Origin: Silvibacterium sp.
Lineage (GTDB): Bacteria > Acidobacteriota > Terriglobia > Terriglobales > Acidobacteriaceae
Assembly (NCBI GenBank): GCA_019232935.1
Contig: JAFAMZ010000318.1
Location: 1 to 38,574 of the forward strand
Length of the DNA stretch: 38,574 nucleotides
Direction of reading: 5' to 3'
Shown: one piece after another, positions 3,098 through 38,574 of the stretch
Numbering within the stretch: the stretch's first letter is position 1
Layout: each line of letters opens with the position of its first letter
Translations under genes and position numbers: made by a program
Notes under the pieces: generated by a model
Databases searched by the model: none
What the model was told of the DNA's origin: nothing
Seen by the model: the letters and a program-made list of their open reading frames with translations, nothing else

Positions 3098-3351
3098 AGA
3101 CACCTCCGAGCTGTCGTGCAGTCAATTCTAGACTTTAGCATCTCTGCTGGATGCACCATCGCGGGCGACCCGAGAAAGCCTTTTCCCTGAGCAACATCGC
3201 CGCATTTCAGATGATTTGAGAAATTTTCAGCCTGCTTTTCAGGACAACTCCCGACCTGGAGTGTAGTGGCAGCGCTGGCCAGGATCCGCCACCCGTTTAC
3301 TTGCCCAATTCAATCCGGCTCTTGGCAAGAGCTTCAACGCTGGAGGAGCAC

Positions 3352-16784: not shown

Positions 16785-17304
16785 TGATCGGAGAACGCGC
16801 TTTGTCTCACCTAAATTCGCTTTCGAAGCGGGAGATCCCCAAATCGCATGTCCAGCCTTAATTTGTATCGAAAAGTCGCCTTGTGTATACCAATTTTTCA
16901 CTTCGATTGGCGAGAACAGGGCTTAGCACTCATTGAACCTGTTGCGGCTCGATCCCAGGATCAGTTGCGGGAAACGGGCAAATCGCCAGTTTGGTATCGT
17001 TGCAACGCGAGGCGGGTAGAAGCACCGGACTTCGGGCCCACGGACAGGCCTTCGTCCGTGGGGTAATCTTCAGCCCGGCAAAATAGGAAAGCGGTCCGAA
17101 GGACCTGCCTTTCTGCCGAAGGCTGGCGCGCAGCAGACACCGTGGCGAACTTCTCCCGATTCCCTCCCTTAGGCATTTTTGGAGGAACGGAATCGGGCCT
17201 CTCCGCCGCGCGGCCAAGCCGCGCCACCTTATTCCCGCGCCCAATCGTCACCCTCGCCGGTCCACCTGTCTCCCTGTGCCCTGATCCCGAGCTCTGGCCG
17301 GTGG
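16785..17304. other. Long spacer with small inverted repeats, no gene recognised
   Basis: This is the left part of an 867-base gap between convergent genes. It holds a hairpin at 17037-17062 (CCCACGGAC and GTCCGTGGG around eight bases) and a small one at about 17093-17105 (GGTCC GAA GGACC). Frames on both strands are proline- and arginine-rich and lack starts with ribosome sites. The hairpins may help terminate the LysR transcript. Confidence 0.5.
17037..17062. repeat. Hairpin-forming inverted repeat
   Basis: Perfect nine-base arms, CCCACGGAC and GTCCGTGGG, flank an eight-base loop. There is no T run on either side, so it is not a standard intrinsic terminator. It could be an interspersed palindrome. 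Confidence 0.6.
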
Positions 17305-17332
17305 CTGAGAATTTCCCCAAACCAGCTATACT
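17305..17332 (+). promoter_or_regulatory. Promoter-like sequence inside repeat copy A
   Basis: CTGAGA (17305-17310) and TATACT (17327-17332) are spaced by 16 bases and resemble a sigma-70 promoter, with four of six matches at -35 and five of six at -10. The second repeat copy keeps the same spacing (CCGACA, 16 bases, TACAAT). A transcript would start near 17339-17341 and meet the hairpin within about ten bases. Confidence 0.45.
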
Positions 17333-17349
17333 AAGAATAGGGACACAAG

Positions 17350-17378
17350 AAGCCCGGCCGCTCCGCGCAGCCGGGCTT
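17350..17378. terminator. GCCCGGC/GCCGGGC hairpin in repeat copy A
   Basis: AAGCCCGGC and GCCGGGCTT form a nine-base stem around an 11-base loop. T-rich sequence follows on both strands. It can act as an intrinsic terminator for the receptor gene on the minus strand, or end a very short forward transcript. Confidence 0.65.
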
Positions 17379-17617
17379 TGTCATCTTTGTCCCCTTTTGG
17401 GAAACGCCCCACAACACGCCATATCCGCAAGTTCAAAGAAGTGAATCGATTACACAATGCTCCTTTGATATGAAAGGCTTACAGGGTTTGCCACAGATGT
17501 GGTGCAATGTTGCGAAATAAGTCGTTTGTTTTCGATGACTCATTTATAAGCGCCTTGTAATGTGTAATATAGCGTATACATCGCCTTTAAATATAGAAAT
17601 ATCTATGAGATAGAGTA

Positions 17618-17643
17618 ATGCCGGGGGGAGGGGTACCCGGCAT
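17618..17643. terminator. G-rich hairpin next to the Oar-like receptor stop
   Basis: ATGCCGGG and CCCGGCAT form a perfect eight-base stem around ten bases that include GGGG and the start of GGTACC. It begins eight bases beyond the receptor stop codon. It lacks a clear T run, so it may stabilise the 3' end rather than terminate. It is the G-rich end of repeat copy A. Confidence 0.5.
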
Positions 17644-17651
17644 CGGTCACC

Positions 17652-20600
17652 TCAAAAGCTCAGGCGAGCGGCGAACTGGAAGGCCCTGGGGCCTCCCGAT
17701 CCGAACACCCCGCCAGCAGTAGAGACAGCCTTGCCGAAGCTCGATGAGAAGCTCGGATTCCCCTGGTCGGGCGAAAGCGTATTCGCAAAACCGGAGTAGT
17801 TCAGGTTGCTCGTGCCGAGGATGTTCGTCACGTTGAAGATGTTGAAGGCCTCTCCGATCAGGTTCAGGTTCCAGCGCTCCCCGAACCGGAAGGCGCGGCT
17901 CAGCCGGAAGTCGAGAGCATTGAAGCTGTCGTCGAAGTGAGCATGCTCGCTCACCTGCGGCAGGATCACATAGCTGTTGGTGCTTGCCTCATACACTCCG
18001 CCGCCGGCGTTTGTCCTGGCAATAAAGGCGTTCAGCTCGCGCGCGTTATGGAACTCGCGTCCGCCCGCATTGCGCTGTATGGTCGGCACCCGCTCGCTGC
18101 CGTCGGGTAGCAGAATGTCCATGGGAACACCCGAAGCAATGGTCCAGACCGGCGAGAACTGGAACTTCCAGGGCAGATTGGCGACGCCGCTCATCACCAG
18201 GCGATGCCGCTGGTCGTTGGGCGGAGGGCCGTATTCGAGTTGCAGATTACTAGGGTCGATCGGAGCGTATTCGAACGGGATCTGGTCGTCGTTGGCATAG
18301 TTGAATGCCTTGGCCAACGTGTAAGCGGCATCGAACTCACCGTACTTTCCGAAGCGGCGGCGGGCGCTGACCCAAAGCGCGTCGTACTTGGTCCCGACAG
18401 CGGACTCGAGGTCCGTAACCGTGGCCGGGCCGCCGGTCTCGGGATTGTAAACGGAACCGACGGGGCGTCCGATGATAAAGCGCGTACCGAAATTGTGAAC
18501 GCCGTCAACTTTCAGAGTAAGGTTGGTGCCGATTTGAGTCTCGAACCCCAGATTGGTCTGCTGAACCATCGGGTTGCGGAGGCGGTTGTTGATAACGTCG
18601 ATGCCCGTTGTTCCCGCTCCCGCGAAGAGGAATCCACTGAACGGGCTGGAGAGGACTTCAGGCGCGCCGGGCTTGAAAGTGCCGTCTGGATTGAGGTAGA
18701 CGGGCGTGCCGTCCGGCGCCGTGACTACGTTGCCGGCAGTAACGTTGAGAGCGAGCGCGCGGCCGTCGAAGCCTTTCTCAAGCGACATGATTTCAAGGGT
18801 GATCCGGTCGTAGTAGATGCCGTATCCGCCGTGAATGCTGAGTCTCGAATACGGCGAGAAGTTGAAGCCAACGCGCGGCCCCCAGTTGTTGTAATAATGG
18901 TGCCGGTTGCCCTGATAAAACGAATCGACTATCGGATTGCGCTGTGAATACCAGCTCAGGTTGTTAAGATTGGTATCCATTTCCCAGCGAAGCCCGAGAT
19001 TAAGCACCAGGTTAGACAGCACTTTCCAGTCATTCTGGGCGAACAGGCCAATGTGGTAGCTGTCGTTGTCCGGCAAATTGAGCGGATGCTGGGGCGTTGA
19101 GCTGCGCAGGCCCACTGCAAATAGCAGGTCGTCGTCGTTGACTACGCCATCCCCGTTGCGATCGAAATCCGGGAAGTCTTCGACGGCCTGAATGTTTCCC
19201 TGAATGAAGACGGGTAGGTAGAAGTCGGCGTCGATGGACTGGACTTCGGCACCGAAGCTCCATGTCTGCTTGCCGCGCGCCCATGTGAGCACGTCGTCTC
19301 CCTGGAGCCGGAACTGGCGGGTCTGCTGCGGAATGCGGTAGGTCGCGCCGTCGTCAAGATCGGGGTAGCTGATCTGCGGCGCCTGCACAATAGGATTGGT
19401 GATGTTGAGGAAATTATTATCCGCAAAACTCATTCGATTAATGAGTGTAGGCGTGAAGGTGTGAACCCAATCTACAATGAGCCCCTGAAGATGATTCTCG
19501 GCTGTCTGACGATAATTGGCCGTGCCGAGCGCGCGATCCAACTGGCTCTGGCCCAGGTCGTCCTCAAGCTGAAGCGAGTACCTGAAATCGATCCGGTCTC
19601 GTTCGCCGAGTTGCCAGTCGAGACGCGTGGTCGCCAGAAAGTCGTGCAGCGGCGCGGTGGCGAATGTCCGGCCGATGGTCCTGGTGGTGGTGTTGCGAAC
19701 GCCAACCAGATCTGCGCCAAGCTGTTGGCGGTCTTCGACCGCTACAAACCACCATGCCTTGTCCTGGCGGAATGGGCCGCCGATGTCGGCGGCGTACTGC
19801 TGGCGATGAAACGGCGGCGTTGTGCCGATTGAAGGATCGTAGGTAGCGGGCAGGCCTTGAAGAACCTTGTCGCGTTCGTAGAAGGCGACATCGCCGTGGA
19901 TCTGGTTGGTCCCCTGTTTTGTAACTACATTGGTTACAGCTGACCCTGAACGGCCCAGTTCCGCCGAGAAGCGGTTTGTGGCAATCTGAAACTCCTGCAC
20001 CGCATCTTCGGGAATATTTACGAGCGAGCCCCCAACCGCATCATCGTTGTTATCTGCGCCATCAATGGTTACGTTACTCCCGCGGCCGAGCTGTCCGGCA
20101 GTGGAGATCAGGACGGTATTCTCCTTGGTCGGATCGAAGTTGGGCGCTGGAGTGTTGCCGGGAACCAGAAGCGACAGCTCAAGATAGTTGCGGCCGTTCA
20201 GCGGCAACGTGGATATCTGCCGCGCGTTCACTAAGCCTCCGAGCGAAGAGGTTGTCGTGTCAACGGCAAGCGGGGTGTCCGCGATCACTTCGACGTTGCT
20301 TCGACTGGTGGCGATTTCTAGCCTAACCGCAATGCTGAGGTCCTGTCCCACATTGAGTGGGACATTCTGCTCATACGTGGCAAAACCGGGAGCGACCGCT
20401 CTTAGCTGGTAGGCAGCGGCGTCGAGCGTGGTGAAGGCGAAGGACCCATCATGACGCGTCAGAAAGGTACGGCTTGTACCTTGAGCCAGATTCGTCAGCG
20501 TTACGGTTACGTTCTGAACGACTTTGCCCGACGGATCGCTGACCACGCCAATGATTCTTGCCGACGCCAACTGCTGAGCGTGCATTCCGTATGCGGTGAG

Positions 20601-24509: not shown

Positions 24510-24643
24510 TTGCGATGTATGCGCTGTTTCCGAAGTTCTTCACCCGCGAAGACATGCCGGAATTTCCGAGAGTGTTGCTGGATAAAGCAACGTGCCGTTA
24601 CTTTCTGTGGTCACTTAACGCGCATCGTGGAAATGAGGGAGAA

Positions 24644-24677
24644 AAAAGGCCCGGGCACCCACGCTGCCGGGCCTTTT
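24644..24677. terminator. Strong hairpin with A and T tails
   Basis: AAAAGGCCCGG and CCGGGCCTTTT form a perfect 11-base stem around 12 bases. It can terminate transcription in both directions. The core and the preceding GAGGGAGA resemble the hairpins of the two composite repeat copies, but the promoter-like block and G-rich end are not evident here. Confidence 0.8.
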
Positions 24678-24893
24678 CTGTCAAGCGGGCCCACGCCCCG
24701 CTTAAACCTCGTTGCCCCGGGGAACATCCGAAAAGCGGATATCCAGAGCACAAGTTCATTTTGATGGCCTCCTGCCATCGGCGCAGACTATCTTTTGGAC
24801 AAAATCCCGGTTCCTCAGGAGAATTCGTCTCGGGTCCGCAGCCTGAAAAGATCGCAATGCCTACATTCGAGCCAAAAGCCGATAGGTGAAAGA

Positions 24894-38253: not shown

Positions 38254-38291
38254 TTCCCGATTCGGGAAGATCGGGGTGGGTACCCCACCCC
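38254..38291. repeat. Two small hairpins after rph
   Basis: TTCCCG-ATT-CGGGAA (38254-38268) and GGGGTGGG-TAC-CCCACCCC (38273-38291) are perfect short palindromes placed back to back after the rph stop. The second is the G-rich end of repeat copy C. Without a T run they would stabilise the 3' end rather than terminate. Confidence 0.6.
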
Positions 38292-38565
38292 CCGGGTATG
38301 GGACGGTAAAGGCGTAGTTATTGATTCTAAAAGGCTCACGAGAGAATTATTTTGTAAATTACAGATTCCAGGGATTTTGAAATCTGTGAAGATGCGCTAA
38401 ATTGCTGAAAACAAGAATCCTACGGGCATGAAGCGCATAATCGTTTTGATTTGGTAGATTTTGCTGGATTCGGCCTCTCCAGAAACCGAAAAAGCCCGGC
38501 TGCGGTTGCGGCCGGGCTTTTCTTGTCCCCTATTTCTATTGTATCTGGTTGGGGGAAATTGTCGG
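38272..38565 (-). repeat. Composite intergenic repeat, copy C
   Basis: Read on the minus strand this has the same order as the copy at 17305-17643. It begins with CCGACA, AATTTCCCCC, AACCAG, TACAAT and AATAGGGG, then the GCCCGGC/GCCGGGC hairpin. An AT-rich middle follows (about 38320-38470), then CCGGGGGG, one variable base, GGGGTACCC. The G-rich end faces rph, so rph transcription would run through it backwards, as for the other copy. The block next to the promoter-like end stays similar to the window edge, so the full left boundary is not seen. No gene was found in this 337-base gap. Confidence 0.7.
38490..38521. terminator. Bidirectional hairpin terminator in repeat copy C
   Basis: AAAAGCCCGGC and GCCGGGCTTTT form a perfect 11-base stem around ten bases, with T-rich tails on both strands. 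It could end the rph transcript about 285 bases after the stop codon, leaving a long structured 3' end, or end a short minus-strand RNA starting near 38530. Confidence 0.75.
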
Positions 38566-38574
38566 CCAAGTTGA

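Follow-up and report, generated by a model that had tools for sequence, protein, structure and literature searches.

The window analyzed here is a stretch of 38,574 nucleotides from Silvibacterium sp. (contig JAFAMZ010000318.1) that contains two copies of a composite element, copy A on the forward (+) strand and copy C on the reverse (-) strand. The initial annotation had described the two copies as sharing both ends, and each end was matched exactly in both places: AATTTCCCCNAACCAG at 17310-17325 (+) and 38545-38560 (-), and CCGGGGGGNGGGGTACCC at 17621-17638 (+) and 38278-38295 (-). At up to 3 mismatches, the window held 3 matches to AATTTCCCCNAACCAG in all (0.83 expected) and just those 2 to CCGGGGGGNGGGGTACCC (0.11 expected). 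The G-rich tract in the right end of copy A is separated by 17 nt from the stop codon of an opposite-strand gene, whose product has carboxypeptidase-regulatory and outer-membrane β-barrel domains. The tract of copy C lies 44 nt past the end of an RNase PH gene.

Copy A begins with a left end module (17297..17393, +; 86.6 bits and E = 5e-21 with the left-end model R1) that consists of a promoter-like stretch, a short leader, and a terminator-type hairpin. The sigma-70-like promoter reads CTGAGA-16-TATACT (17305..17332, +; 9 of 12 consensus letters, shuffle mean 0.4), and the hairpin, GCCCGGC..GCCGGGC and then TTT, is found at 17352..17376 (+). The array of units that follows (17428..17615, +) was scored with a unit matrix to which copy A itself had contributed; it contains two strong units, 29 apart, at 17428-17455 and 17457-17484 (+; scores 22.6 and 21.7), and a weaker one at 17588-17615 (+; score 10.6), with a sub-threshold window 41 before it (score 6.6). 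The G-rich tract (17623..17634, +) is recognized from its sequence and sits within a GCCGGG..CCCGGC dyad.

Copy C has the same parts on the reverse strand. Its left end module (38477..38573, -; R1, 100 bits, E = 1.8e-24) starts 1 base from the contig end and includes the sigma-70-like promoter CCGACA-16-TACAAT (38538..38565, -; 9 of 12 consensus letters, shuffle mean 0.3) and the hairpin GCCCGGC..GCCGGGC, then TTTTT (38494..38517, -). The array is strongly decayed, with a sole unit above threshold (38352..38379, -; score 13.0) and a sub-threshold window 41 further on (score 5.6); the G-rich tract lies at 38282..38293 (-). In both copies the promoter-like hexamers are consensus matches only. 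The middle of the element had been taken for a drifting stretch, but it is in fact a degenerate array of regularly spaced units. R1 was trained on 25 left-end copies, copies A and C (rows A_L002 and C_L003) among them, and it gave five weaker matches in the window, all of 24 bits or less: the antisense of both copies, a partial hairpin on both strands at 24628-24689, and 3203-3238. The forward-strand match at 24628-24689 (23.1 bits, R1 positions 36-97) is a hairpin of this type that lacks the promoter portion.

The initial annotation had called for a search of the whole genome and of relatives with each end, and for a covariance model; when the left end was searched in this way, many copies were found. 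In the genome of the window (G000, 75% complete, 441 contigs), the pattern TTTCCCCNAACCAGNTANNNTA with up to 2 mismatches had 13 matches, 2 of which (L007 and L012) were judged by eye not to be elements, and the reversed control had 0. At E ≤ 0.01, R1 detected 34 left ends in G000, 29 in the congener G003, and 60 in the congener G008. Other congeners contained 21 (G005), 10 (G007), 7 (G006), 2 (G002), 2 (G004), and 1 (G001), and 52 genomes of other genera contained 0-3 each. These data demonstrate that the left end is a multi-copy sequence in several genomes of the genus. Among the listed left ends of G000, 6 of 32 lie less than 300 nt from a contig end (P about 0.02; contigs C153, C150, C231, C370, C308, and C113), as if repeats broke the assembly; contig C143 of G003 begins within a G tract.

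Compensatory changes in the hairpin, which had also been proposed as a check, are present in all 7 stem pairs of 91 copies. The stem is paired in 96.8% of 620 cells, a value obtained with an alignment that had been fitted to the model (slid controls drop to 28-56%), and 51 cells hold compensatory changes compared with 9.5 in shuffles. The T runs 3' of the stem are short (2-5 by eye), and a strict terminator scan listed no terminator at the hairpin of copy A or copy C.

We analyzed the association between the left end and the G-rich tract in 89 left ends, mostly the better-scoring ones (31 of 34 in G000, 18 of 29 in G003, 39 of 60 in G008, and 1 of 10 in G007), 29 of which came from pattern matches and 60 from region fetches. 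This set leaves out L007 and L012, L014 and L015 (which duplicate L002 and L003), and L048, which is an element. A G-rich tract begins 215-364 nt after the left end in 69 of the 89. Since the tract pattern has 19 matches in 80.2 kb of neighboring same-strand sequence, about 3 of 89 would be expected by chance; this expectation was computed with 67 linked left ends, and the 69 include L218 and L240, whose tracts, at 239 and 313, were found by searching from position 120. To the eye, these distances form clusters around 232, 283, and 323. Seven further left ends have a tract at 508-769 nt, and the zinc-finger pattern is found in 5 of these 7.

The remaining 13 left ends had no match to the tract pattern. 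In four of them a contig end truncates the sequence (L001, L211, L213, and L265); in three a tract can be made out by eye but looks slightly degenerate (L207, L210, and L250); three have none (L252, L255, and L266), and three (L013, L217, and L222) have no array and other genes downstream. The last three are what would be expected if the left end, as a promoter-hairpin unit, had nothing to do with a 3'-end G tract that was nearby by chance, but with 69 of 89 left ends linked when about 3 were expected, this explanation is scarcely credible. The annotation had named independent ends as the finding that would speak against a composite element; the ends instead behave as a unit, and the linkage supports a composite element with conserved ends. 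Its right end stands in a looser form, as the G-rich tract recurs among elements and the exact string occurs only twice in the genome of the window at up to 1 mismatch. The left ends that lack an array lie before a 298-aa ORF that is peptidoglycan hydrolase-like by eye (L217, 432-1328, +), a 114-aa ORF (L222, 447-791, +), and a kinase-like start by eye (L013).

An iterative matrix search, seeded with a G003-type word, defined the unit of the array in the genus of the window as TAAcTCcAaTGgAATGAATGGgTTACAGaat, with 277 instances in 86 of 87 bodies and 0 to 7 recognized units per element (87 elements). Each unit comprises a half-site, TAACyCC, and a 16-nt word, and the units are tandem direct repeats. 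The matrix had its 277 matches in 21.6 kb of sense bodies, which are its training set, compared with 0 in 32.9 kb of downstream sequence, 7 in 26.2 kb of upstream sequence, and 36 in 17.1 kb of antisense bodies. Simple-repeat tracts (such as CTGATCCCTGTTCCCTG or GCTAATCGCTAATCCCTAA) were seen 5' of or within L017, L021, L030, L031, L032, and L216.

Neighboring units in the genus fall into three spacing classes, 28-30 bp (68 pairs), 39-42 bp (62 pairs), and 50-52 bp (24 pairs), which together (near 29, 41, and 51 bp) account for 154 of 191 pairs. The distance from the last unit to the G tract is 22-26 or 31-36 nt in 79 of 86 cases. The commonest spacing orders are 41 (14 elements), 29-41 (13), and 29-51-29-41 (9), and longer ones also recur, 51-29-51-29-41 in 3 elements and 29-51-29-51-29-41 in 2. 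A different unit, cTAACTCCTTTgtttTCAAGAATTTA, is found 5' of the gene outside the genus (55 loci). When 50 loci of non-genus type with distinct proteins were analyzed (only identical proteins had been removed, so that close relatives stay in the set, and L073 and L173, which belong to the genus of the window, have no unit), 94 units were found in 43 loci, with at least 2 units in 30 of them. The antisense control for this matrix had 17 matches, and shuffled letters had a mean of 3. The 51 spacings outside the genus were 29-30 (24), 40-42 (11), or 52 (8), together 43 of 51. The word is thus a different one outside the genus, with the spacing plan retained in similar classes. From one class to the next the spacing changes by 10-12 bp, or about one turn of the double helix; the periodicity statistic is flat (R 0.74-0.77 across 10.5-12 bp), so "one helical turn" is a reading of these spacings and no result. 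The spacing classes could in part be inherited from one ancestor.

Within an element, the words resemble each other more than they resemble the words of other elements. When units were shuffled among elements of the same genome, the similarity of the 16-nt word within an element was 0.688 versus 0.598 (S.D. 0.008; z = 11.7), a value reached in 0 of 1000 shuffles. The adjacent TAACyCC half shows no such excess (0.440 versus 0.437, z = 0.3, 396 of 1000), and the 11-12-nt linkers show little, both before the unit (0.285 versus 0.268, z = 2.4, 13 of 1000) and after it (0.278 versus 0.264, z = 2.1, 26 of 1000). The 5-nt stretch that separates the half-site and the word also has an excess (z = 5.6). 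The result is the same in ORF-less elements alone (word z = 10.8, left half z = -0.4) and when loci fetched by the seed word are removed (71 elements; word z = 11.0, left half z = 1.7, 45 of 1000). Outside the genus, 30 loci gave 0.652 versus 0.552 for the word (0 of 2000) and 0.597 versus 0.578 for the left half (218 of 2000), in shuffles that mix genera. A cruder half-body similarity test had a small effect (11.86 versus 11.50 of 16, 1 of 5000) and, for G003 alone, no within-element excess (11.00 versus 11.02).

Copying of whole units fails as an explanation of these data, because it would also carry the half-site and the linkers, and the half-site has no excess and the linkers have little. 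We take this to point to one factor that recognizes all of the words of an element. Short-patch copying within an element, by gene conversion or templated repair, could homogenize words with no recognition factor, and the clear homogenization of the word alone is what it would leave; even so, a 16-nt tract that ends short of the adjacent half-site would need a special mechanism, the pattern recurs outside the genus, and we regard this alternative as very improbable. That the architecture, the spacing, and the presence of one word per element all hold together is, in our judgment, highly probable. We also considered the word as a guide to the leader RNA of its own element and rejected this idea, as the complementarity was 5.79 versus 5.79 of 8, no greater than to other leaders.

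Some elements also contain a gene. In L041/L055, L045/L054, L047/L078, L028, L103, and others, an ORF lies between the hairpin and the array, and it encodes a protein with a finger, C-x9-C-x10-C-x2-H, plus a helical part. C7, C17, C28, and H31 are invariant in all 23 rows of alignment A3, from which the L045/L054 protein, with Trp for the third Cys, was excluded. The zinc-finger pattern is found downstream of 6 of the 89 left ends, and the ORF counts in G000, G003, and G008 (5, 2, and 7 matches) are far below the numbers of left ends (34, 29, and 60). Neither this linked Cys3His gene nor the word array was foreseen in the initial annotation. Matches to alignment A2 were found in 24 of 81 relatives and matches to alignment A4 in 19 of 247 genomes sampled from the phylum, all in the family of the window. 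A scan of named records returned 33 loci, with titles that are all acidobacterial (Granulicella, Edaphobacter, Korobacter, Sulfotelmatobacter, Terriglobia, and Acidobacteriaceae). They usually begin with a promoter-like stretch, which is sometimes followed by a hairpin; the units come next, then often a G-rich stretch, and finally the start codon. The finger pattern was found in 27 of the 33, and the strict G-tract pattern lies upstream of the ORF in 6 of these 27. The gene is linked to the array outside the genus as well, where it is usually 3' of the array; 43 of 50 loci have at least one unit upstream of it. In the congener G004 (L058), the ORF and its leader look identical by eye to those of JASHUR010000049.1 (L173), from Acidobacteriaceae bacterium isolate JOPF184.

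The predicted finger resembles CCCH zinc fingers, with its three Cys and one His and with weak profile matches. The zf-primase profile matched 7 of 23 proteins (best E = 7.6e-4) and the DUF5763 profile 4 of 23 (best E = 1.1e-4), both of which we take to be CCCH-type fingers; zf-TRM13_CCCH (Pfam) was another weak match, and zf-C3Hc3H scored 14.3, below its curated cut-off of 27 bits. The Pfam and NCBIfam matches of the linked proteins include no transposase family. Two structures were predicted, from 11 and 6 input sequences; in the model of the genus-type protein (6 sequences), the finger and helices mostly have pLDDT above 90. Neither model had a Foldseek match at E ≤ 0.001, VIA-align rows had Z below 8, mainly over residues 40-110, and the best match in a PDB sequence search had E of only 0.16.

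Word classes and proteins do not map cleanly one-to-one. In each of three genomes there is some case in which ORF-bearing and ORF-less elements have the same consensus word; these groups are L225 and L216; L041 with L023 and L032; L047 with L232 and L235; and L028 and L022.

The order of these parts bears on whether the array might act at the level of RNA. The element could make a short terminated RNA and, on read-through, a leader in which the words serve as binding sites for the zinc-finger protein, or for some other RNA-binding protein, so that translation is controlled at a Shine-Dalgarno-like G tract. This would fit the promoter-like stretch and covarying hairpin that lie before the array, the position of the array and often of the G-rich tract just 5' of the start codon outside the genus (the G tract is likewise before the ORF in L073 of the congener G002), and the RNA folds of whole copies A and C, which are better than those of shuffles (z = -2.4 and -4.05, respectively), as is the fold of 1 of 4 single units (z = -3.0). 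Against it, the other 3 single units fold no better than shuffles, the strongest pairings among 276 distinct units fall within the word, where they lack the nesting of a stem, single-stranded sites need no strict spacing, the ORF precedes the array in the examined ORF-bearing elements of G000, G003, and G008, and the word is no more complementary to its own leader than to others. Taken together, these results make an RNA-level element unlikely. On the same covariation results, RNA hairpins inside the units were not supported, the single-unit folds being mixed. The suggestion in the initial annotation of a structured RNA family thus fits the terminator-type hairpin with its strong covariation and does not extend to the array units; Rfam 15 had 0 matches at the gathering score in the window and 8 loci, with five chance-level matches in 17200-17700 (E 1.1-4.9).

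The genomic sites of the elements were also compared. Several are common to species (L008/L019 and L011/L042 and, on the G-rich side, L209/L027 and L216/L236). At one such site, G000 has an ORF with one internal stop (L056) and G003 has none listed (L039). L009 and L032 share a flank but have opposite orientation to it. In other species, 20 homologous flank regions were fetched, in which no convincing left end was found; there were 2 weak left-end matches (best 13.7 bits), and the G-tract pattern occurred in 6 of the 20, in 1 of them at the expected place as judged by coordinates (L269, contig start). The joined flanks of 7 elements from the genome of the window had no junction-spanning match in 8 other genomes of the genus. 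From the joined-flank search and the 20 flank regions, no clean empty site that would reveal a target-site duplication was obtained, and the element-less flanks do not count as clean empty sites because no case has both flanks joined. The outer-membrane protein gene beside copy A has homologs in G003, G004, and G007; no element was seen in the 700-900 nt beside these homologs, and their neighbors differ too. A second interspersed hairpin repeat, of the CCCACACAAGCCCGGTTTTGGCTTGTGTGGG type, lies near several elements; it is present in the flanks of L004, L009, L022, and L029 and in the joined-flank query (209-256 and 1313-1388), and in 7 of 9 genus genomes among the rows listed (not G004 or G006).

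By a rough longest-ORF rule, applied to G+C-rich DNA, the right-hand neighbor is directed at the element for 46 of 69 elements, and for 24 of 52 the genes on the two sides are convergent. The location therefore loosely fits the idea of a 3' end module, one of the possibilities named at the outset for this element. A phage or plasmid origin was considered and rejected: L068 had no match among 50,697 phage and 72,556 plasmid records, the protein patterns had 78 matches in viral contigs, none of which was confirmed, and the left-end pattern had 2, both within open frames and with no further part of the element after them.

These observations also bear on the proposal that the element is a non-autonomous mobile unit, which remains plausible given the many ORF-less copies, the few ORF-bearing ones, and the element-less homologous flanks in other species. 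In its simplest form, a MITE- or BOX-type miniature element would be spread in trans by an unrelated transposase, with the words as leftovers of internal repeats and the Cys3His gene as cargo; the convergent flanking genes and the left ends close to contig ends would be in keeping with this. However, such elements should have terminal inverted repeats, and in 69 elements the left end matched its own right end in 7.09 of 10 letters compared with 7.06 for the right ends of other copies. Several sites are common to species, clean empty sites were not found in the searches above, and neutral remnants would not be expected to show constraints on word and spacing. We therefore consider a miniature element of this type distinctly unlikely.

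In its architecture, the cassette resembles the BOX element of Streptococcus pneumoniae, a composite interspersed repeat with two conserved ends and a variable number of internal repeats that is over-represented between convergent genes (PMC3049150). In the portion of that report drawn on here, the terminal inverted repeats of BOX are compared with those of ISSpn2, an RNA fold is predicted for it, and no gene of its own is mentioned. The cassettes, in contrast, lack terminal inverted repeats; their left end carries a promoter-like stretch and a hairpin, their units are spaced in fixed classes, each element has its own word, and some elements include a gene. In the REPIN/RAYT system, as far as it is outlined in the source cited, numerous small non-autonomous copies likewise form groups, and a few protein genes are associated with individual groups. 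RAYTs, however, are tyrosine transposases and REPs are palindromes (PMC3116915), whereas some cassettes encode a small, partly helical Cys3His protein and their sites are direct repeats at set spacings. The many short non-coding copies per genome (34 left ends in the genome of the window) are MITE-like, whereas the lack of terminal inverted repeats in 69 elements is not. Iteron arrays and multi-site operators are direct repeats with set spacing and a specificity matched to a nearby protein; in contrast, the cassettes are dispersed in dozens of copies per genome, each with its own word, and mostly lack a gene. A literature search of titles and abstract openings did not find such an element.

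Based on the above results, the best reading of copies A and C is that they are ORF-less members of a cassette family found within the acidobacterial family of the window. The cassette consists, in order, of a sigma-70-like promoter, a short leader, a terminator-type hairpin, sometimes a Cys3His gene, the array, and a G-rich tract. We propose that the Cys3His protein from the same cassette may bind the array on duplex DNA, that each such protein would prefer its own word, and that the array of an ORF-less copy would be bound by a relative encoded elsewhere in the genome. A bound array might then govern whether the cassette is read through or translated, and perhaps also how it spreads. The whole reading, in which the arrays are DNA sites for Cys3His proteins and many ORF-less copies are satellites, seems to us about evenly balanced between being right and being wrong. 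It is possible, though somewhat doubtful, that the family forms a new class of dispersed self-recognizing cassettes, each with a private word, in which Cys3His proteins encoded by a minority read particular words, protein-word pairs diverge within one genome, and ORF-less copies depend on the proteins of others, as a selfish family or a regulatory network.

The acidobacterial phylum is abundant in soil. If the reading is right, the cassette family would be an undescribed kind of repeated element, judged by the literature search and the family libraries, with dozens of dispersed arrays per genome that each have a private word, share a spacing plan, and are matched by a small protein family. It would account for a multi-copy, unannotated acidobacterial gene family and its long leaders, and it would provide a natural set of protein-word pairs in which the divergence of DNA recognition could be studied.
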